A stretch of DNA of 35,216 nucleotides, taken from positions 1-35,216 of the IMG/VR virus record IMGVR_UViG_3300027996_000096; one strand, 5' to 3'. This stretch comes from a virus. Of this stretch, positions 2,983 to 35,216 are shown one piece after another. Made by a program: the position numbers and the translations under genes. How positions within the stretch are numbered: position 1 is the first letter of the stretch; each line of letters starts with the position of its first letter. Below the pieces are notes generated by a model. That model searched no databases. It saw only the letters and a list, made by a program, of their open reading frames with translations, and was not told the origin of the DNA.

Positions 2983-3011
2983 GTCATGTGAAAGCATGAC
3001 CTAATTTTTTA
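2983..3011 (+). terminator. Intrinsic terminator of the giant RNA
   Basis: A perfect 6 bp stem GTCATG (2983-2988) / CATGAC (2995-3000) with loop TGAAAG is followed by CTAATTTTTTA. It closes the structured region a few bases before the leader of the next gene. Confidence 0.7.
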
Positions 3012-3014
3012 TTT

Positions 3015-3030
3015 ATTAACCTTAAAACTA
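3015..3030 (+). promoter_or_regulatory. Conserved gene leader, copy 1 (ATTAACCTTAAAACTA)
   Basis: ATTAACCTTAAAACTA ends 7 bases before the ATG at 3038. The same element occurs before three further genes (3495-3510, 3797-3814 and 4386-4402), each time directly after a terminator-like hairpin or structured spacer and 5-7 bases before ATG. It may combine a phage promoter with the A-rich ribosome-binding leader usual in Bacteroidota. Confidence 0.65.
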
Positions 3031-3037
3031 TTGCGTT

Positions 3038-3430
3038 ATGTACAAAATTATAAACTTAAATGCCTTTTGTAAATACGAAGGTAAAACTCCTGAAATAGGA
3101 ATAGCTGTTGACGGATGCTTTGCATCAAAAGCATGGATCGAATCAGATGAAAAATTCAATGATATACTTGGAGAAAAATTCTCTTGGTATTCTCCAAATG
3201 ATGATAACTATTACTGTAACAGTAAATATTCATTCAGTAGACCTACTGAAGAAGAAGTAATTGATGAACTATGGGCTAATGATAATCTTGAAATATTAGC
3301 ATTAGAAAAAGGATTTGTACTTTGGGTAGATGAAAAACCTACTAAAGAAAATCCTCAAAAACATAATCATATTGATGAATCACATTGGCTCACAGAAGAT
3401 GTAGTCATGCCTGATTTAGGCAGTAAATAA
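3038..3430 (+). CDS. Acidic protein of unknown function, 130 aa
   Basis: Predicted 130-residue soluble protein, acidic and rich in aromatic residues, with a Y-Y-C-N segment near residue 60 and many Trp (W-Y, L-W-V, H-W-L). No signal peptide or membrane segment and no family recognised. The start follows the conserved leader ATTAACCTTAAAACTA by 7 bases. It is the first gene after the giant RNA and has its own unit: spacer and a new leader follow it. Confidence 0.75.
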   Translation: MYKIINLNAFCKYEGKTPEIGIAVDGCFASKAWIESDEKFNDILGEKFSWYSPNDDNYYCNSKYSFSRPTEEEVIDELWANDNLEILALEKGFVLWVDEKPTKENPQKHNHIDESHWLTEDVVMPDLGSK

Positions 3431-3494
3431 AACTAGAAAAGACGTGATATTCGTCGTATACCTAAGCAAGTAGACAAACTGCTATTTTATAAAT

Positions 3495-3510
3495 ATTAAC
3501 CTTAAAACTA
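3495..3510 (+). promoter_or_regulatory. Conserved gene leader, copy 2
   Basis: Exact copy of the 16-base leader at 3015-3030, placed 6 bases before the ATG at 3517. The spacer before it (3431-3494) holds a small hairpin GACG/CGTC near 3442-3456. Confidence 0.65.
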
Positions 3511-3516
3511 TATATT

Positions 3517-3735
3517 ATGCAAAGATTAACAATCCACTTAAGACAAGTTACTCCAGTAATGGAAGAAAGACTTGTAACTGTAATGAAAAATGATAAAAAG
3601 ACTAAAGAAATAAAGTCTATGACTGTCATTAAAAACACTATCGCTATTGAAGTAAAAACTCAAAACGATATTGACGCTCAACTAAAAAAATATGAACGTA
3701 ATATTAAGAAATTTTATTTATCTAATATTATGTAA
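3517..3735 (+). CDS. Small basic protein of unknown function, 72 aa
   Basis: Predicted 72-residue protein, lysine-rich, with alternating beta-like and helical character. The C-terminal half (about residues 40-65) is a charged helix with A-Q-L-K-K-Y-E-R. No cysteines, signal or membrane segment. The pattern would suit a small nucleic-acid or protein binding domain, but I do not recognise the family. A terminator follows immediately. Confidence 0.7.
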   Translation: MQRLTIHLRQVTPVMEERLVTVMKNDKKTKEIKSMTVIKNTIAIEVKTQNDIDAQLKKYERNIKKFYLSNIM

Positions 3736-3736
3736 A

Positions 3737-3795
3737 AAAGTAAGACCTTAACTAAACCAAAAGGGAAGAGATGAAACCTTCCCTCTTACTTTATT
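3737..3795 (+). terminator. Two-step hairpin terminator
   Basis: Outer stem AAAGTAAG (3737-3744) / CTTACTTT (3785-3792) and inner stem AGGGAAG (3762-3768) / CTTCCCT (3778-3784) form one coaxial hairpin directly after the stop at 3733-3735. The T tract after it is short (TTTATT), so it may be a processing hairpin rather than a strong terminator. Confidence 0.6.
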
Positions 3796-3796
3796 C

Positions 3797-3814
3797 ATTA
3801 ACCTTTTAAAACTA
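3797..3814 (+). promoter_or_regulatory. Conserved gene leader, copy 3
   Basis: ATTAACCTTTTAAAACTA, the same element with two extra T, 5 bases before the ATG at 3820. Confidence 0.6.
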
Positions 3815-3819
3815 CAACT

Positions 3820-4152
3820 ATGAAAAATATAATAATAATACTATTACTATTAAGTTCAACTCAAGTAGTAGGTCAATATAGTAAAGAAAAACCTAACTAT
3901 ACTGTAGGTATAGTAGGACTATCAGGATTACCTATTTCTTTTATTATTACTGAAATAAATTACAGTAATTTTGTAAGTAAATTTGGTCAAGGAACTCCTT
4001 ATATGGGAGATAACAAAGCATCTGCATATAATAGTATGATGAATAGAAATGACAGCATATTAATAACAGGAGCACTTGTAACAGTTGCAGGTCTTGTAAT
4101 ACAACATTTCATTACTAATAAAAAAAACAACAAGAAAACTTGTTTGAGATAA
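3820..4152 (+). CDS. Exported or membrane-anchored small protein, 110 aa
   Basis: Residues 1-18 form a classic short signal peptide (M-K-N, a run of Ile/Leu, then S-S-T-Q-V-V-G-Q). A Gly-rich hydrophobic patch lies at about 28-45 (V-G-I-V-G-L-S-G-L-P) and a transmembrane helix at about 85-100 (I-L-I-T-G-A-L-V-T-V-A-G-L-V-I), followed by a basic tail. The product should sit in the host envelope. Phage proteins of this kind can act in superinfection exclusion or lysis, but nothing here decides that. The start follows the conserved leader. Confidence 0.75.
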   Translation: MKNIIIILLLLSSTQVVGQYSKEKPNYTVGIVGLSGLPISFIITEINYSNFVSKFGQGTPYMGDNKASAYNSMMNRNDSILITGALVTVAGLVIQHFITNKKNNKKTCLR

Positions 4153-4168
4153 CCAAATGACATTATTA

Positions 4169-4206
4169 TGACATTTCTATCTAATAGATTTGTCACAGAA
4201 ATGTCA
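4169..4206 (+). other. Perfect 10 bp inverted repeat before the tRNA-like element
   Basis: TGACATTTCT (4169-4178) pairs perfectly with AGAAATGTCA (4197-4206), leaving an 18-base loop. No T tract follows, so this is a structural hairpin rather than a terminator. It lies 5 bases upstream of the tRNA-like acceptor stem. Confidence 0.65.
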
Positions 4207-4211
4207 CAAAT

Positions 4212-4292
4212 GCATATCAGCTCCACTTGTAGGACTAGTTGGTACGACTAAATAATATGTCAGAGAAGGTTCAAATCCTTCGATATGCACCA
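4212..4292 (+). tRNA. tRNA-like element with encoded CCA, anticodon not resolvable
   Basis: GCATATC (4212-4218) and GATATGC (4282-4288) form a perfect 7 bp acceptor stem, followed by A (4289) and an encoded CCA (4290-4292). The T arm is perfect: GAAGG (4265-4269), loop TTCAAAT, CCTTC (4277-4281). The D-loop signature AGTTGGTA is present at 4237-4244 but lies about a dozen bases too far from the acceptor stem, and only 46 bases separate acceptor and T arm without a proper 5 bp anticodon stem carrying a U33-type loop. The nearest candidate loop (TGGTACG, GTA in the centre) breaks the rules. It could be an unusual tRNA, a decayed one, or a tRNA mimic. Confidence 0.5.
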
Positions 4293-4316
4293 ACTTTTCT
4301 ACGCAATAGAAAGTTT

Positions 4317-4377
4317 AAATCAGAGTTCCTCATTGATATGTTTGTTTTAGGATTAATGTAGAGGAGCTCTGATTTTT
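4317..4377 (+). terminator. Long-stem terminator after the tRNA-like element
   Basis: A 15 bp stem with one G-T pair, 4317-4331 against 4361-4375, sits on a 29-base loop and ends in GATTTTTAAT. Just before it, ACTTTTCTA and TAGAAAGT (4293-4313) make another hairpin. Together with the tRNA-like element this may be one transcript. Confidence 0.7.
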
Positions 4378-4385
4378 AATTGAAT

Positions 4386-4402
4386 ATTAACCTTTAAAAC
4401 TA
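4386..4402 (+). promoter_or_regulatory. Conserved gene leader, copy 4
   Basis: ATTAACCTTTAAAACTA, 6 bases before the ATG at 4409, directly after the long-stem terminator. Fourth copy of the element also seen at 3015, 3495 and 3797. Confidence 0.65.
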
Positions 4403-4408
4403 TATATT

Positions 4409-4585
4409 ATGATAACTGAACACTATTACACCAAAATTAATAACAAGATGAAATCACATACTTTAGATAAAACAATGTCTAAAACCAAAGAAAAATCAGT
4501 ATCGAAAGATGCTTTTATCAGTGCAATAATAGCTATTAGTGGATTAACACTTATAGCCATTATTGGTATTTTGATACATCATTAA
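4409..4585 (+). CDS. Small single-span membrane protein, 58 aa
   Basis: ATG at 4409 to TAA at 4583-4585 encodes 58 residues: a basic hydrophilic N-terminal part (about 1-34, many Lys/Ser/Thr) followed by one transmembrane helix (about 36-56, I-S-A-I-I-A-I-S-G-L-T-L-I-A-I-I-G) and a His-His end. It is supported by the conserved leader just upstream and the terminator downstream. Its function is unknown; candidates are an exclusion or holin-like peptide. Confidence 0.7.
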   Translation: MITEHYYTKINNKMKSHTLDKTMSKTKEKSVSKDAFISAIIAISGLTLIAIIGILIHH

Positions 4586-5382: not shown

Positions 5383-5390
5383 TCATATTA

Positions 5391-5426
5391 AATGTAGGCT
5401 CTCTTATGAGAGTCTGCATTTTTTTT
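5391..5426 (+). terminator. Intrinsic terminator
   Basis: Stem AATGTAGGCTCTC / GAGAGTCTGCATT with two G-T type pairs, loop TTAT, and a run of eight T. It follows the stop of the 187-residue protein by 8 bases. Confidence 0.85.
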
Positions 5427-5447
5427 AATAATTAAAACTAAATAAAT

Positions 5448-6002: not shown

Positions 6003-6074
6003 AGAGAGGAGCACTTTTGTCCGTACCTAGCCACCACTAGACAGTACGGGGAGCAAGTTTAAATGCTCCTCTCT
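6003..6074 (+). ncRNA. Long hairpin with inner stem-loop before the exported protein gene
   Basis: An 11 bp perfect helix (6003-6013 with 6064-6074) encloses CCGTAC/GTACGG (6021-6026/6044-6049), which holds a CTAG/CTAG pair in its loop. There is only TATATATTATT after the stem, not a T run, so a terminator role is doubtful. With 5914-5995 it makes a 160-base structured leader. Confidence 0.6.
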
Positions 6075-6106
6075 TATATATTATTAACTATAAAAACTAA
6101 ACCACT

Positions 6107-13125: not shown

Positions 13126-13839
13126 ATGAGAATGATAGGAGTAGCAGGGCCTTCCTCTACTGGTAAGACTACCAGTTTTAGGAACATGCTTCCAAAAGAA
13201 ACATTTATGTTGTTACCAAACAACAAAACGCAACTCCCTTTTCCTGGGAGTAAAAAAAATTATATTAAGTATGATAAGGAAACAAATAAAGGAAACTTAG
13301 TAATTAACAATCAAATCTCTGCTATTTCTGCAGTAGTAAAAAAAGTGAATGATGAACTTCCTCATATTAAATACCTCTTAGTTGATGATATGACTCATTT
13401 CTTTAATGCTGAAACTCAATCTGCAAAATTTAGAGCAAGAAATAGTGGAGGAGAAGCATTTGCTAGATGGGCTGATTTTGCAGCTAAAACTTATCAAACA
13501 ATATTTGATAAAACTGATATTTATAGAGATGATTTGACTGTAATCATGCATTTTCACACTGAACTAATAGAAACTTTTGAAGGTTCTAGAATGCAGTTAA
13601 AAACACCTGGAAAAATGTTAGATAGAGACATTGATATTCCTTCTTACTTTACTTATATGTTTTATAGTAAAGTTCTACCCCCAGAAAAGGATAGAAAACA
13701 AGAAGATAGATATGTCTATGTTACAAACGATGACGGTTCTAGACCCGCAAAAACTCCAATGGGATGTTTTAAAGATTTAGAAATTAAAAATGATATGTAC
13801 GAGATTGTAAAGACAATCGACAAGTACGAACAAGGATAA
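13126..13839 (+). CDS. Sak4-like RecA-fold ATPase, recombination mediator
   Basis: 237 residues. Walker A is G8-P-S-S-T-G-K14-T15 and Walker B Y-L-L-V-D87-D88. The remaining layout (a short lysine-rich segment, then a helical region with R-W-A-D-F, and a late I-M-H-F-H-T-E motif) matches the compact phage RecA-fold ATPases (Sak4/AAA_24 type) that work with a phage SSB in single-strand annealing. The neighbour downstream (13877) is an SSB-like protein, which fits that pairing exactly. Alternative: a DNA-packaging or maturation ATPase, less likely at this position. Confidence 0.8.
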   Translation: MRMIGVAGPSSTGKTTSFRNMLPKETFMLLPNNKTQLPFPGSKKNYIKYDKETNKGNLVINNQISAISAVVKKVNDELPHIKYLLVDDMTHFFNAETQSAKFRARNSGGEAFARWADFAAKTYQTIFDKTDIYRDDLTVIMHFHTELIETFEGSRMQLKTPGKMLDRDIDIPSYFTYMFYSKVLPPEKDRKQEDRYVYVTNDDGSRPAKTPMGCFKDLEIKNDMYEIVKTIDKYEQG

Positions 13840-13876
13840 GTAATTATTAATAATAAACAAATAAAAATTAAATTTT

Positions 13877-14455
13877 ATGTACAGTACAAAAGGAACTGAA
13901 GAAAAAGTATTCGTGAGCAAGTATGTGTCTCCAGGAATACAAGTAGTAAAGATTGTTGAAATAAGAGGTGAAGAACCTGAAGGATTTTCTCCTAGACTTA
14001 TTTTTAAATTTGTAAATGCAGAACAAAAAGAAGTAGAAACTAACTTTTATATGAGTACTGCAGCTCAACCTAAATCAATGGAAAAATTACTTCACATTGC
14101 AACAAAATGTGTAACTCGTGATGCTATAGATAATGTGGGTGGAGAAAATTTAATAGATTGGGGTAAAAACCTTAATCAATTATTAGCAGGTCATAAACTA
14201 AGAATGAAATTTATCGGTAATGAAATTGCAGGTAAAGAAGGAAAAGGAAATTGGTTTAAAGCTGATTTAGGACTTCCTTCATTTGCAGAAGCTGTTGAAG
14301 CAGGAGCTGAACACGCACCTCTTGGAGAAGGAGAATCTAAACTTACGTTTGACGAAAATAATAAATGGGATATGAAAAGACTTCCTGTTGCGGATACTGA
14401 AACTTCTGGTTCAGTAGCTCTTGACATGGGAGAAGCAGATGATGACCCATTTTAG
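13877..14455 (+). CDS. Single-stranded DNA-binding protein with D-D-D-P-F tail
   Basis: 192 residues. The last residues are G-E-A-D-D-D-P-F; an acidic tail ending in Pro-Phe is the protein-protein docking tip of SSB proteins. The N-terminal 120 residues are beta-rich and basic in places, consistent with an OB-fold core, though sequence alone does not prove the fold. It directly follows the Sak4-like ATPase and precedes the primase. A hairpin (14460-14481) and a terminator close the transcript after it. Confidence 0.8.
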   Translation: MYSTKGTEEKVFVSKYVSPGIQVVKIVEIRGEEPEGFSPRLIFKFVNAEQKEVETNFYMSTAAQPKSMEKLLHIATKCVTRDAIDNVGGENLIDWGKNLNQLLAGHKLRMKFIGNEIAGKEGKGNWFKADLGLPSFAEAVEAGAEHAPLGEGESKLTFDENNKWDMKRLPVADTETSGSVALDMGEADDDPF

Positions 14456-24939: not shown

Positions 24940-25054
24940 AAGAGTAAAGAGGGGAGAGATGCCGACAGAAGAAGGAAAGAAGTTAATAGGTAAAATAAGC
25001 TATTATAAATCTATTATAGAAATTGTAAACCAAAACAAAGATGAAAATAAGTAA
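24902..25054 (+). CDS. Small helical protein, 50 aa
   Basis: ATG at 24902 to TAA at 25052-25054. The 50 residues are a charged helix pair (I-A-I-E-Q-L-E-R-V-K-R-G-E-M) ending N-Q-N-K-D-E-N-K on a cassette junction. It overlaps the next gene by 14 bases. The first 15 codons share DNA with the upstream gene in another frame. Confidence 0.55.
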   Translation: MENILEIAIEQLERVKRGEMPTEEGKKLIGKISYYKSIIEIVNQNKDENK

Positions 25055-25193
25055 ACATAAAATAGCATATCAATTCCATGTGTTACCTTACATTAAGATA
25101 ACCTATGACAGAACTCTTAACGGAGAGTATGAATTTATAGTTGGGTGGATGAGTGTAGGAATATCATTATCATTTAAACCAAAACAAAAATGA
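25041..25193 (+). CDS. Small protein of unknown function, 50 aa
   Basis: ATG at 25041 sits in the junction motif; TGA at 25191-25193 overlaps the next ATG. The 50 residues are beta-like and Tyr-rich with G-W-M-S-V-G-I-S-L-S-F. Its end, K-P-K-Q-K, is the same junction DNA as the N-Q-N-K ends but in another frame. Confidence 0.6.
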   Translation: MKISKHKIAYQFHVLPYIKITYDRTLNGEYEFIVGWMSVGISLSFKPKQK

Positions 25194-25441
25194 CTGAACA
25201 AGAATTAATATCACTAGGCTTTAAAAAGCGCATAGAAGAAGATATGGATATACCATTCTACTATTACACACTAGATATAGTAGATGGATTACATTGTATT
25301 ACACAAGCTGATGATGAAGTTAAGAATGATGATGAGTGGAGTGTAGAACTAAGCTTTGACTGTAACCCAAGAATTAAATTTAAAGATGTTAAGTCATTGA
25401 CTGAGCTAATTAATTTATTAAACCAAAACAAAGATGAGTAG
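25190..25441 (+). CDS. Small acidic protein of unknown function, 83 aa
   Basis: Predicted 83 residues, acidic, alternating beta and helix. It opens M-T-E-Q-E-L-I-S-L-G-F-K-K, a pattern common at the start of small uncharacterised Bacteroidota phage proteins, and ends L-L-N-Q-N-K-D-E on a cassette junction. It overlaps both neighbours by 4-8 bases. Confidence 0.7.
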   Translation: MTEQELISLGFKKRIEEDMDIPFYYYTLDIVDGLHCITQADDEVKNDDEWSVELSFDCNPRIKFKDVKSLTELINLLNQNKDE

Positions 25442-29116: not shown

Positions 29117-32100
29117 TTACATGAATTTTTTTACGTTTTTGACATATTCTCCATAGTCATACCACGAACTTATTTGTCCATAATAAGGAGTTACATCTCT
29201 CCAATATCTACTTGCTTTTGTTTCTCCTTTATGATATCCACTTTTATATACTGACCAATCTTCCCATGTAACTAATGGTTCTAAAGAATAGCCTATTGCT
29301 TTTGCTATTTTTTCTGTCATACCTAAAGTAGCTGATGGAGATCTTAAAATCTTTGGAACTTCTAAAGGATTTATCCAGAAACCAACTTCAGATTTTAATC
29401 TATACATTTGATATACTGTAGCATTAAGTAATAAACTATCATCGTCATCTCCTCCTATTTCAGCTAATGCATTTACTACTACAGTAAGTAAAGCAAATGT
29501 AGCAAGTTCTGTGACTGTAGATTTAAGTGCAGATTTCTTCCATTCAGGAAGATTATTATATCCATTTTCTCCTCTATATGCTGTTATTAGTGCTATACCT
29601 TCAGTATCTCTAACTAATTGTCTCATGAAGTTATAAGCTATACGATAATTACCTCCGATGTGAGCTCCTAATTGTTGATTAAATGCATATTCTACAGAAG
29701 ACTCTACTATTTTATGTTTTTTAAATTCTTTTCTAGTTTTAGAACTATTAGTAACCTTATTATTTCTTAGAAATTCTTCAAATGTTGTTTCTGTAGGAAT
29801 CCCTGCTTCATTTGGGACCATTCTTTTTTCATTTCCAGAATTAAACTTCTCTGGAGCAAAACGTCTATCAAATCCAGGCTGTAACCAACTTCTAAATAGC
29901 AAAGCAAGTCTATATTGCCATTGTTTATTAGCAGCAGCTTTGGTAAGTTTAGAGTAGTTACCGTGACTTCTTCTATATAATGCTTTAATTCTTTCAGTTA
30001 GTTTAGCCATTTCTTCATTACTAACAGAACTAGTTGTAATGTTATCTTCTTTCTTTAAAGTTTCAAATACTGAAGTAAGAGCTTCAAATTTTTTCTTTTC
30101 TGCTTTATTATTAGCTACTCCTTCTTTTACCATATACTCTTGAAAGCTATAAACTTTTCCATCTATTACTTTATGAGAAAGTAGTATTGCTACAGCTTGT
30201 TCTACTTGAATTTCGTGCTCTCCTCCTTCCTGCATTAATTGACTAGCATTAGACATAAATCTATTTGCTGCTACATGAGAAGGTAAAGGGTTGCCAAAAT
30301 CATCAAATGCTTGAAAAATATTATGCTGATTCATAAAGACATTAATCATATTGTCATTATATCTCTTAGTAGCATCAGATAAAAAACCAGGTAAATTTTT
30401 AGCATATATTGCTTTAGCTTTTCTTAAATGAGTACTAGTATAAAATTGGCCTCCTCTACCTTCAAAGAAGTTTGCCATATTACCCATTACTAAATTATTT
30501 AATGCTGAACGAGGATTAAATCCTAATTGAACTGTTGCTGTAAGTCCTCTTATTGTATCTGCTGTTTTACCAACATTTAAGTTTCCTGCAAATTCTGTAT
30601 TTTTAAATTCTCCATATAACTGCATATCAACATTGTCAATAAGCATTTTATATGCGTTAAATTCTATTGCACTTTTTGTATTTTCTTTAGTTGTTCCCTT
30701 AGTTAAATATTTTTTAGAACCTAATTTTTGTGTAACTTGTCTTTTATCAGATAGTAACATTTTAATTCCTTCTATTTCAGTAACTATGCCATTCATAGTT
30801 TCATAATTATCAGCCATAGTTACAAATCTAGAAAGAGAAGATTCTAAATCTACTGATATATCATTAGGATCAATTTTTTCATGACTTACATATTTAATAG
30901 GAACTACTTTGATAACTTTACCATTTTCATCAGTTAAAGTTTCTATATATTCAGTTTCGTCACTTGTAAATGTAAATTTTTCTTGAGTCGATTTAATAGT
31001 ACTTTTTATAACTCCTGTAGAAGATTTATCTGCTATTCTTTCGTCTAAATTTTTAAGTATAGCAGGAAGTTCAGTTCCTTTTCTAAAGTTTTTATGAATT
31101 TTCTTTTGAGCGTTACTGTACTCTAAATGAAAGAAGTTTAAGAATCTAAGTTGAGGAGCAGGTAAAGCTTTACCTTTTTCTGAATTAGGGTGAATATAAT
31201 GACCAGTTAACTTTCCGTTTCCATCTCTTTCAAGCATAAAATTATACATTGCTTCATGAGATACTTTCTTACCTTGAAACTTTTGAAGAAGTTCTGCCTC
31301 TACTCTTAATTTAGTTTGTTGAAAATATTGTTCTCTTTTAGCTACTTCGTTCTTCTTTCTCTCTATTGCTTTTGCTACTAATGCTAATACTTGATCTCTA
31401 GAATCAGCCATAGCTCCAAACTTAGCAGTAAGATTATGAACATCGTCTGTCATATGGACAAACATACTTTGAAGTTTCTTTTTAGTAAGATTAGGATCAG
31501 AATTAAACTGCATTAGAAAATCAGCTCCTAAGTCATATGTTAATTTTAGATAAGTATCTTTAGCGCTTTGTATATTACTTTTAATTACAGCAATATATTT
31601 ATTTCTAAATTCTCTATCTATTATTTCTTCATCAAATCTAGGATCGCTAATAGCGACACCTTCCATTTCACCAAAAAAGTTTGTAACAACATCAAAACTA
31701 GATAAAGCGTCCATTGCTTTTTCTAATCGTTGAAGTTGTTTTCTTTTATCTTCTTTTGTTGCGCCTTTAGCGTAATATTTTTTTTCTATATCTGTTATAC
31801 TTTTAATATCTATATTATTAGAACGTTCAAATCCATAATAAATAAAATTCAATACTGCAGTACTAAATTCTTTATCTCTAATTTCTCTAGTTATAGAGCT
31901 TATTAGTTTATTCATTTTTGCTACTCCTCCTTTTTGATTCTTAGCTTCATAGATAGTCTTCTTCTTTCTTAGAATATCTATAGAACGTCTAGCTAAAAGT
32001 TCGAGCTTTCTTAATGATTCTGCAGATTTATCCCCTTTTTCAAGAGATTTAGTTTTTTCTTTAATGACTTTTTCCTCTTTCTGTAATTCTCCAAGAGTCA

Positions 32101-32683
32101 TAGTATTAGCTTCATTAGTATGAAAAGTTCCAGCTACTTGTACCTGTGTATGAGTTGCTACTGCTACTGTTCCTACTTTAGAGTCAAAACTAGCTACGTT
32201 AAGAAACATAGGTTTTATTTCTCCTATAGAAGGTACAGGAAAATGACCAGAGTAACCTGAAGAATCGAATTGTCCAGCTTTCTTTTTATCAGAAGTAAAT
32301 GTATCAAAAGAATCTAGATTATACATCAACATTGGTTCGCCTTGCTTATTTACAGCAGCTGATACATTTATAGGACGATTAAGAATAACTTTTTTTGTTC
32401 CGTCTCTTTTTGATATAGCCTGAGCGCTTCCTTTACCGAATCGGTCATTTAATTCTTTAGCGTGAGCTGAAGCAGCCTCTCTAGTTTTATGATTAGGAAT
32501 AAGAATATTATCTTTAATATAATCATAGTTATAATACAATTCCCAGTTACCAAAAAACTGTTTGAAGTCTTCTGAGTGAATCTTTATAAATACAGTGTCT
32601 GCAATATCTTCACCATAAGTATCTATTAACTCTTTATATAGTGTACTTTTTCCTTTACCAAGGGTGTCTAACGAACATGCCAT
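29117..32683 (-). CDS. Giant polyvalent/ejection-type protein with degenerate ART-like region, 1188 aa
   Basis: 1188 residues. Near the N-terminus D-F-K-Q-F-F-G-N-W-E resembles the 'F-x-x-W-F-G-D' tag of phage polyvalent proteins. It is followed by V-N-K-Q-G-E-P-M-L-M-Y and F-D-T-F-T, then I-K-P-M-F-L-N-V, which follow the outline of ART-PolyVal ADP-ribosyltransferase domains (N-x-G-E-P-L-V-x-Y-H-G-T). The H-G-T is replaced by N-L-D, so catalysis is doubtful. The middle is helical and lysine-rich. At about 1065-1085 there is a hydrophobic segment (E-L-A-T-F-A-L-L-T-V-V-V-N-A-L-A), and the C-terminus ends Y-W-R-D-V-T-P-Y-Y-G-Q-I. Its start overlaps the stop of the polymerase-like gene (TAATG). 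I infer a virion protein ejected into the host together with it. Confidence 0.7.
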   Translation of the reverse strand: MACSLDTLGKGKSTLYKELIDTYGEDIADTVFIKIHSEDFKQFFGNWELYYNYDYIKDNILIPNHKTREAASAHAKELNDRFGKGSAQAISKRDGTKKVILNRPINVSAAVNKQGEPMLMYNLDSFDTFTSDKKKAGQFDSSGYSGHFPVPSIGEIKPMFLNVASFDSKVGTVAVATHTQVQVAGTFHTNEANTMTLGELQKEEKVIKEKTKSLEKGDKSAESLRKLELLARRSIDILRKKKTIYEAKNQKGGVAKMNKLISSITREIRDKEFSTAVLNFIYYGFERSNNIDIKSITDIEKKYYAKGATKEDKRKQLQRLEKAMDALSSFDVVTNFFGEMEGVAISDPRFDEEIIDREFRNKYIAVIKSNIQSAKDTYLKLTYDLGADFLMQFNSDPNLTKKKLQSMFVHMTDDVHNLTAKFGAMADSRDQVLALVAKAIERKKNEVAKREQYFQQTKLRVEAELLQKFQGKKVSHEAMYNFMLERDGNGKLTGHYIHPNSEKGKALPAPQLRFLNFFHLEYSNAQKKIHKNFRKGTELPAILKNLDERIADKSSTGVIKSTIKSTQEKFTFTSDETEYIETLTDENGKVIKVVPIKYVSHEKIDPNDISVDLESSLSRFVTMADNYETMNGIVTEIEGIKMLLSDKRQVTQKLGSKKYLTKGTTKENTKSAIEFNAYKMLIDNVDMQLYGEFKNTEFAGNLNVGKTADTIRGLTATVQLGFNPRSALNNLVMGNMANFFEGRGGQFYTSTHLRKAKAIYAKNLPGFLSDATKRYNDNMINVFMNQHNIFQAFDDFGNPLPSHVAANRFMSNASQLMQEGGEHEIQVEQAVAILLSHKVIDGKVYSFQEYMVKEGVANNKAEKKKFEALTSVFETLKKEDNITTSSVSNEEMAKLTERIKALYRRSHGNYSKLTKAAANKQWQYRLALLFRSWLQPGFDRRFAPEKFNSGNEKRMVPNEAGIPTETTFEEFLRNNKVTNSSKTRKEFKKHKIVESSVEYAFNQQLGAHIGGNYRIAYNFMRQLVRDTEGIALITAYRGENGYNNLPEWKKSALKSTVTELATFALLTVVVNALAEIGGDDDDSLLLNATVYQMYRLKSEVGFWINPLEVPKILRSPSATLGMTEKIAKAIGYSLEPLVTWEDWSVYKSGYHKGETKASRYWRDVTPYYGQISSWYDYGEYVKNVKKFM

Positions 32684-35216
32684 TATTTACAATTTTTTCT
32701 ACCGTGTAAGTCATTAATTTTTGCTACTGTAAGAGCATCTGGATAAATGTCTGCAAAATCAGATTTTTGATCAATGTTATACGCCATAAGTTTAAAAGGT
32801 ATCCCTTCTCTTTCTATTACATTGTAAGTTGCTCTATCTCCTTTGTCTCCACTTTCCTTCTTAAATAAAACGTTTTGCTTAACACTTTTATCAAAAGTAA
32901 TGAAATAATCTACAAATCCCATGTCTTTATCAAATAATTGTCTATTGCTATCTGTTGCAGTAAAGGCTTCTCCTTGTATATGTTTCTGATCTATCTTCTT
33001 CATTTTAGGAATAAGATTCCGTGCTTGAGTATTATTTTTTACAAATCCTTCGAAGAATCCTTTAAAGAATTTTCCATTTTCAAATACTGTATAATTATTA
33101 TTAAAAAACTCAATCATTGATTCCTCTTTCCCTGGTTGTAAGGATAATTGTCTATCGCTCCACACTTCTATAGGGATTAAATCTGCATAAGAATTAGGTC
33201 CTGAATCAAATCCTTTAGATAGAACTTGATAGTAAACTAAATTTTTAGCTAAGTCTCGAACTTCTGGTAAAGGATGTTCATATAATTTTTTAAAAGAATG
33301 AGTTATATTATTGATTTCTTTTACGTCGTTATCATATCCAAACTCAAACATTAAAGATTTAACTTCACTAAAAGGAACTTCTTCTCCCCTTCCATTTACA
33401 GTTATTTCTTTATTTTTAAAATTATCAGGATGAGGAAATAATCTATTTAAAAATGCATTTCCTTTAAGACTGAATAAAGCATCCCCTTCTTCTGAATCTT
33501 CAATCTGAGTCTTAATACTTATTAATTGTCTATCTATAGAATTATCTCCTTTCATTAAGTAATTAATAGAAGCGGTTGAGAATAATGGAGAAATAGGACT
33601 TACAATATGTCTTTGACTAAACATATAAAGTAAAGAGTGTTTATTAATTACTTTATAATCTTCAGCTGTAAATCTTCTTTTATTCAATCCTTCTCTCATT
33701 AATTCTTTAGCTTTATTTATTCCACTCTTTTGAAAAGGGAAAAATAAATCAGACAATTCTTTAGCTGTTTCTAATCCACCTCTAAAGGCTTTAGATAATC
33801 TAAAATCATCTCCTCGAACTAGTCCTTCAAATCCAGTAAAGAATCTATTTCTTCCATTAGGATTATCATCGCTTTCTAAATCTTCTACTTCTTTTAAAAT
33901 GGCGAAAAATTCTTCTAATTGAGCAACATTTGAAAATTTAACTCTATCAGCATTAAGAATTTTATTTAAATTATTCATCATTCTACCTGCATCGTGATAA
34001 AGAATAAAATTATTTATAACTTCTTCTTGACTCAATGCATCCTTTACATCTAGACCTATATTATCTTGAAGTTCTTTAGTTGATATATTAACAGTTCCAT
34101 TTAGACCTTCTATTTTTATATTATTATATCCTTTTTCTTTTAAAAACTTATTAGCTAAAGTTCTAATTTGAGAAGGATTACCATTTTCATTAATATAGTA
34201 ATTAGTAAATTCTCTAATGATAGGCTGATTTCTAAAGTACGCTGCAATTTCTCCTGGATCTCCAGTTAATTCATCTTTGCCTTTAACTTGTAATCCATTG
34301 TTGCTAATCCCTGAAGAGATAATTAGGGATGTAACAGGAGATGTAAATGCATTATCATTTAATACTTCCATCATCGGCTCATTAGGATTATCCACAGACA
34401 TATTCAAGTGCTTGTTGAAATGTTCTGTAATTGGATTACCTAATTCGTCGTATTCTTCAGATACATTTTGAATATTTTTGCCGTCAAACTTTACTGAGTA
34501 TTGCTCATTTAATAAAACAGGTTGCTTAGAGTGTTGTCTTATTGCCTGACCATTTAATGCTACAGCATAAATACCAATACCAACTTTACCCATTTTATTT
34601 CTTATCTCAAGGTCTATTTCAGTAGACCAATTAGCAGGATCTAACTCAGAAATATAATCTTTTAACTTTGGAGCCATTATTTCTACTAATTGAGGAAACG
34701 TTTGAGAATCTACAGAAGTAATAAGCTCTTTACCTACTACAGGATTAGTAAGAATGCCTAATGCAATATCTAGAAATGCATTTTCTAATGACTCTCTTTC
34801 AGCGCCGTGGAGATTTTCAAGATCATAAGAAACTTTTTCAGCTACTAATTTAGGTTTAAGTTCTTTAAACTTTTTATTTAAAAATGATAATGTTTTTTTC
34901 CTAGCTTCTATAAGGTCTCCAATGTCTGCAACTCCTGAATCAGAAATTATTGTCATATCTTGGACATAGTCTTCATCTTCCATTAACTTGCTAGCATCTT
35001 TTCTAGAAATGTCAAAACCTCTCTTTTTCATTTGTGAAACAAAAGATCCTTTTTCGTCAAAGATATCTCCATTTTTAGTTTTCCATTTGATATCATAGTT
35101 AGGCATCATTAAGAATAACTTATCAATATCAAAATCCGACCCCATTTGAGTAGTAATTTCTCCAGGTACAATTATTGCTTTTCCTTGTGAGGGAGTTAAA
35201 ATCTTTCTAATTCGTA
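32683..35216 (-). CDS. C-terminal part of a crAss-like virion RNA polymerase (partial)
   Basis: The frame is open to the window edge; about 843 residues are present and the start lies beyond it. Immediately before the first in-window Met, 24 residues (R-I-R-K-I-L-T-P-S-Q-G-K-A-I-I-V-P-G-E-I and on) lead into Q-M-G-S-D-F-D-I-D-K-L-F. The D-F-D-I-D is a DxDxD motif of the double-psi-beta-barrel RNA polymerases, in which the three Asp bind catalytic magnesium; the preceding P...Q...P-G-E-I pattern fits that strand order. crAss-like phages carry such an enzyme in the virion as a very large chain, and about 815 residues after the motif fits the known layout as I remember it. The downstream part is helical, with no other motif I recognise. 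An alternative is another DPBB-fold large phage protein. Confidence 0.65.
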   Translation of the reverse strand, partial: RIRKILTPSQGKAIIVPGEITTQMGSDFDIDKLFLMMPNYDIKWKTKNGDIFDEKGSFVSQMKKRGFDISRKDASKLMEDEDYVQDMTIISDSGVADIGDLIEARKKTLSFLNKKFKELKPKLVAEKVSYDLENLHGAERESLENAFLDIALGILTNPVVGKELITSVDSQTFPQLVEIMAPKLKDYISELDPANWSTEIDLEIRNKMGKVGIGIYAVALNGQAIRQHSKQPVLLNEQYSVKFDGKNIQNVSEEYDELGNPITEHFNKHLNMSVDNPNEPMMEVLNDNAFTSPVTSLIISSGISNNGLQVKGKDELTGDPGEIAAYFRNQPIIREFTNYYINENGNPSQIRTLANKFLKEKGYNNIKIEGLNGTVNISTKELQDNIGLDVKDALSQEEVINNFILYHDAGRMMNNLNKILNADRVKFSNVAQLEEFFAILKEVEDLESDDNPNGRNRFFTGFEGLVRGDDFRLSKAFRGGLETAKELSDLFFPFQKSGINKAKELMREGLNKRRFTAEDYKVINKHSLLYMFSQRHIVSPISPLFSTASINYLMKGDNSIDRQLISIKTQIEDSEEGDALFSLKGNAFLNRLFPHPDNFKNKEITVNGRGEEVPFSEVKSLMFEFGYDNDVKEINNITHSFKKLYEHPLPEVRDLAKNLVYYQVLSKGFDSGPNSYADLIPIEVWSDRQLSLQPGKEESMIEFFNNNYTVFENGKFFKGFFEGFVKNNTQARNLIPKMKKIDQKHIQGEAFTATDSNRQLFDKDMGFVDYFITFDKSVKQNVLFKKESGDKGDRATYNVIEREGIPFKLMAYNIDQKSDFADIYPDALTVAKINDLHGRKNCK

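Follow-up and report, generated by a model that had tools for sequence, protein, structure and literature searches.

A near-invariant leader before four consecutive early genes of a crAss-like phage, probably used for translation initiation without Shine-Dalgarno pairing

The stretch of DNA analysed here, called the window below, is IMG/VR virus record IMGVR_UViG_3300027996_000096 over its 35,216 nt, and represents part of a crAss-like phage genome. A family-B DNA polymerase is encoded, and the layout is that of phage phi14:2, with early genes, then replication genes, then an RNA polymerase on the opposite strand. The initial annotation had placed a virion RNA polymerase on that strand, and the polymerase is real, being made up of two minus-strand subunits that resemble gp062 and gp063 of phi14:2; the frame of the catalytic subunit is open to the window edge, and phmmer returned no match for the subunits among PDB sequences. 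One contig (L005) is 99% identical to the window and ends before the region described here. It was the only close relative found by single-protein searches, and the 4819 protein alone found none. The nearest relatives found apart from it are two IMG/VR contigs, L402 (also L205) and L401 (also L213), whose phrog_16309 family protein is 53-54% identical to that of the window; the L205 terminase is ~43% identical to gut crAss-like phage terminases. The features of the early region and the polymerase subunits are as follows.

2983..3000, plus strand: terminator-like stem-loop with T-run, ahead of copy 1
3015..3030, plus strand: leader copy 1, 16 nt, ATTAACCTTAAAACTA; ends 7 nt before ATG 3038
3038..3430, plus strand: early gene, 130 aa, without Pfam or PHROGs match
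3495..3510, plus strand: leader copy 2, 16 nt, ATTAACCTTAAAACTA; ends 6 nt before ATG 3517
3517..3735, plus strand: early gene, 72 aa, without PHROGs match
3758..3788, plus strand: stem-loop ahead of copy 3, called on the minus strand; the same stem forms on the plus strand
3797..3814, plus strand: leader copy 3, 18 nt, ATTAACCTTTTAAAACTA; ends 5 nt before ATG 3820
3820..4152, plus strand: early gene, 110 aa, with a hydrophobic, signal-like N-terminus and without family match
4317..4376, plus strand: long stem-loop with T-run, ahead of copy 4 (-22.9 kcal/mol for a 70-nt segment)
4386..4402, plus strand: leader copy 4, 17 nt, ATTAACCTTTAAAACTA; ends 6 nt before ATG 4409
4409..4585, plus strand: early gene, 58 aa, with a C-terminal hydrophobic stretch and without PHROGs match
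5390..5421, plus strand: terminator-like stem-loop ahead of the first weak copy
5430..5440, plus strand: weak copy, AATTAAAACTA, 7 nt before ATG 5448
6048..6071, plus strand: terminator-like stem-loop ahead of the second weak copy
6083..6099, plus strand: weak copy, ATTAACTATAAAAACTA, 7 nt before ATG 6107
29117..32683, minus strand: crAss-like RNA-polymerase-associated subunit, like phi14:2 gp062 (24% identity)
32683..35216, minus strand: crAss-like catalytic RNA-polymerase subunit, like phi14:2 gp063 (23% identity over 340 aa), with a DFDID motif

The element ATTAACC-T(2-4)-AAAACTA occurs four times in the window, on the plus strand only, and the four copies before ATG 3038, 3517, 3820 and 4409 stand where they had been reported, at spacings of 7, 6, 5 and 6 nt. 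The reported length of 16 bases applies to copies 1 and 2 and is too short for copies 3 and 4 because the T-run differs between copies, giving a leader of 16-18 nt. The weaker versions noted before 5448 and 6107 are also present. No copy of the full motif arose in 300 dinucleotide shuffles of the window, and the relaxed pattern TTAACC-N1-5-AAAACTA was found four times versus a shuffle mean of 0.04. The repeat is therefore non-random and linked to genes, random placement is not borne out, and the claim that it is longer than a Shine-Dalgarno leader holds. Within the window the full motif is found only ahead of early, stand-alone genes. This region is rich in terminator-like sites, with seven between 2900 and 6700 versus 0.9 expected, and a stem-loop adjoins both weak copies and every full one except copy 2. 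The earlier statement that every copy follows a terminator or structured spacer is thus right for copies 1, 3 and 4 and wrong for copy 2, the spacer of which is weakly structured (-7.7 kcal/mol).

The element recurs well outside the window. Consecutive small early genes of L401 and L402 carry (C)ATTAACCCAAAACTA 5-6 nt before ATG, with TTAACC variants on further genes, and phi14:2 has TTAACCCTAAAAACTA, TTAACAATTAAAACTA and TTAACAACTAAAACTA before ATGs within its first 2.2 kb; leaders fitting the consensus stand there at 1622, 1960 and 2172. When 7-mers before genes were ranked unsupervised, AAAACTA-type words came top or near top in phi14:2 and in IMG/VR contig L121, as did TTAACCC-type words in L401. 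Contigs L012, L121, L218 and G311 each carry the motif on several genes, and the full pattern was not found in crAss001, cr125_1, p-crAssphage, ProJPt-Bp1, phi4:1 or FpV4. A search of 84,980 species genomes for ATTAACCTTTAAAACTA-N4-8-ATG gave 29 matches, nearly all in Bacteroidota (27 of 29), and 23 of all 29 are followed by an ORF of 50 aa or more. Host chromosomes rarely contain the full motif: a scan of 296 genomes gave 21 copies at 4-8 nt versus 10 at 14-18 nt, and reversed-pattern controls were similar in size to the motif counts. Nor is AAAACTA a common leader in three sampled Bacteroidota genomes. The strong form of a host-wide leader, with this word on every Bacteroidota gene, was rejected given that AAAACTA is uncommon and the full pattern rare in the 296 genomes.

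The motif is locked to the ATG and not to a promoter or other upstream element. Among 60 distinct IMG/VR sites with an A/T insert, collected with no ATG required, 21 are followed by an ORF ATG 4-8 nt further on, and just one has it at 14-18 nt. With an ATG required, an ORF of 50 aa or more follows in 76 of 100 sites at 5-7 nt versus 37 of 112 at 15-17 nt among the matches listed, a comparison of ORF openness only, as the totals (at least 100 and at least 112 sites) are not comparable. The motif-to-ATG distance is 5-7 nt in 100 of 113 leader-bearing genes, a figure partly ascertained by the search. The host -7 box TAnnTTTG is found upstream in 18 of these 113 genes versus 4.3 expected, and its distance to the motif varies from 5 to 54 nt. 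In L218, L012 and L121 the order is host-type promoter (TAHHTTTG), leader motif, ATG; in these contigs the Bacteroidota sigma-ABfr promoter (TTTG / TAHHTTTG) closely precedes the leader and is separate from it. Promoters of F. johnsoniae are defined by a transcription start 4-5 nt past the -7 box, and therefore the motif should lie within the mRNA or at its very start. Nothing of this kind was seen in the window, where the 150 nt ahead of the early genes contain no TAHHTTTG and the motif itself contains no TAnnTTTG. Many leader-bearing genes (48 of 107) also lie within 30 nt of an upstream ORF or overlap it, and some leader copies fall partly within upstream ORFs.

These positions bear on the suggestion that the repeat is a phage-specific promoter read by the opposite-strand polymerase. 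On that view, motif and stem-loop together would direct early initiation by the virion RNA polymerase (vRNAP), or by another RNA polymerase, as a promoter or start-site element, yielding one transcript per small gene past the preceding terminator. The window resembles crAss-like (phi14:2) and N4 vRNAP early transcription in its layout with an opposite-strand polymerase, and the confinement of the full copies to the early region, the stem-loops ahead of three of them and the lack of a host -7 box nearby all agree with this. So does phi14:2, the early genes of which are transcribed by its vRNAP (review PMC10136315) and which carries the motif among its first genes. However, a promoter does not readily explain an element fixed relative to the ATG, placed within compact operons and partly inside upstream ORFs, and lying downstream of the promoter in phages with host promoters. 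Transcripts starting 5-20 nt before the ATG would have hardly any leader, whereas the F. johnsoniae mean is 33 nt. The motif is also not restricted to vRNAP phages, as it stands ahead of some Bacteroidota chromosomal genes and in host-promoter contigs (classed by their promoters, not by absence of a vRNAP), and vRNAP phages such as crAss001 and p-crAssphage lack it, as does cr125_1. With the same element 5-7 nt from the ATG in host-promoter contigs, host genes and compact operons, the vRNAP promoter is not supported and we consider it unlikely.

We instead favour the reading that the repeat lies in the 5′ untranslated region and serves there as a non-Shine-Dalgarno leader for translation initiation, which its sequence and position make probable. 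Ribosomes of Bacteroidota do not use Shine-Dalgarno pairing, and adenines upstream of the start codon count; in F. johnsoniae, A at -12 and -13 is positive for translation and bS1 has been suggested as the contact (Baez 2019, PMC6847099). All four window genes have an AAAA tract at -9 to -14, with A at -12 in every leader and at -13 in three of the four, and A is found at -3 in three of the genes and at -6 in one. The sampled host regions and the phages examined have their A-peak at the same place, at about -10 to -14. No Shine-Dalgarno-like sequence was found in the window leaders, and pairing of the leader with 16S rRNA was limited to internal sites, with none at the 3′ tail. The window leaders share with the A-rich initiation regions of Bacteroidota, described in F. 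johnsoniae (Baez 2019, PMC6847099) and Prevotella (Accetto and Avgustin 2011, PMC3155529), both the lack of a Shine-Dalgarno sequence and an A-tract at -10 to -14. They differ in being a near-invariant 16-18 nt with a TTAACC block on consecutive genes, whereas the host leaders have a base preference only.

On this basis, the A-tract would be placed at the position that the ribosome prefers, with bS1 or the 30S subunit as the contact, and the flanking TTAACC and CTA may extend it into a longer loading site with constant spacing to the AUG. The phage would equip its small early genes, separate units mostly behind stem-loops, each with its own leader, and each gene could then be efficiently translated whichever polymerase makes the mRNA. 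The alternative suggestion of the initial annotation, a shared RNA-binding site, comes near this reading provided that the 30S ribosome or bS1 does the binding. Several observations go against it. The A-tract fits known ribosome preferences, but TTAACC is not explained by them and no receptor for it is known. The early, stand-alone placement in the window is equally predicted by a promoter, and stems directly ahead of the leaders would need transcription to re-initiate near the motif, where there is no host -7 box. Host chromosomes rarely use the full motif, and the predicted mRNA accessibility of the leader genes is not clearly higher. The leader matters for what it may offer: Bacteroidota and their phages initiate without Shine-Dalgarno pairing and a strong start site there is poorly defined, making a near-invariant leader on consecutive early genes a natural candidate. 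Its consensus can be tested by reporter and would aid in finding true start codons in phage genomes.

It is also conceivable, though unlikely, that environmental crAss-like phages use a dual element, a vRNAP start site or context that is at the same time a ribosome-loading leader and is carried on exchangeable cassettes with small early genes. To our knowledge no promoter-like sequence has been assigned to a crAss-like vRNAP earlier, and if true the dual element would be the first.

Whether recombination made the copies so alike is a related matter. The early regions of L402 and L401 are 94% identical, and a 108-aa gene that in L402 carries a leader and sits between two further leaders is missing from L401. 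The break lies inside the leader repeat, and the adjacent gene does not encode a paralogue. Because the break falls in leader repeats, units of leader plus gene may be exchanged as cassettes, and the pair suggests a way for crAss-like phages to swap small early genes; this is a single case, seen in relatives rather than in the window, with gain versus loss not polarised. Gain and loss of such units through recombination at the leader could account in part for the near-identity of the copies under the translation-leader reading. For a second indel between L402 and L401 (L402 8300-8800, ~400 nt, two small ORFs), the junction is a short match of ACATTA type rather than a leader.

T4-type phages have comparable units, the PeSL (promoter early stem-loop) cassettes (PMC4503421), reportedly described by Arbiol in 2010 and Comeau in 2014. 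These combine a stem-loop with a conserved element between small early genes, an arrangement seen here at three of the four full copies, and vary by presence or absence with the break at the element, of which the L402 versus L401 difference is our one case. The PeSL element is an early promoter, whereas the element here is locked to the start codon and has no recognised host promoter, and some leaders here are without a stem-loop. Another view is that recent duplication, or recombination in the early region, largely accounts for the copies, which would function no more than any A-rich leader. Copies 2 and 4 do share TATATTATG beyond the motif, and the gene gained or lost at the leader repeats of L402 and L401 points the same way. 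However, the flanks of the other copies differ, and independent phages have the consensus and the ATG distance in common, which leaves this view quite improbable. About equally improbable is an mRNA site for a phage or host regulator, protein or small RNA, controlling the early genes jointly and apart from ribosome loading: the fixed 16-18-nt word, its fixed position overlapping the initiation region and a TTAACC outside known ribosome preferences would suit one, but the motif occurs in unrelated phages and a few host genes, there is no candidate regulator, and in the window, pairing with the adjacent noncoding RNA is weaker than in shuffles.

That RNA, a candidate of ~500-700 nt at about 2090-2815 of the window (best part 2125-2600), lies directly upstream of the early genes in an ORF-free stretch ahead of the first leader. 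It is conserved in four contigs, with ~76% DNA identity between the window and L401:

L401, 4242-4960: RNA homologue
L402, 4207-4935: RNA homologue
L430, ~13640-14145, plus strand: RNA homologue
L432, 6920-7440, minus strand: RNA homologue

The RNA is present in L430 and L432, where the leader pattern is absent. In the structure from four sequences 97.8% of cells pair, and two-sided change is seen in 39 of 113 pairs, whereas shuffles give 14.9 and slid controls 3-6. Scoring on the very alignment that yielded the structure favours it, but the controls are far lower. Neither Rfam nor ARAGORN gave a match, and this is a candidate for a new large structured RNA in environmental crAss-like phages.

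Other repeats were seen in the window. In the ORF-free stretch 784-1590, ACTCTCATCCAATTGCAGG ... GCAACCTTGTGAGAGTAT forms the basis of three repeats, and another repeat, of 79 nt, is found at 1064-1142 and 1434-1512 (96% identical). A different gene block has a second fixed leader, AAACCAAAACAAA(G/A), at 25027-25040, 25176-25189 and 25420-25433, directly before ATG 25041, 25190 and 25434; a variant precedes 24766. Lastly, in phi14:2 (L154, NC_021806) ARAGORN predicts a tmRNA with the tag GSSVQKLAMVA at 4031-4500, an ORF-poor stretch where several annotated ORFs have been withdrawn, and this is possibly a phage-borne tmRNA adjoining the early genes.
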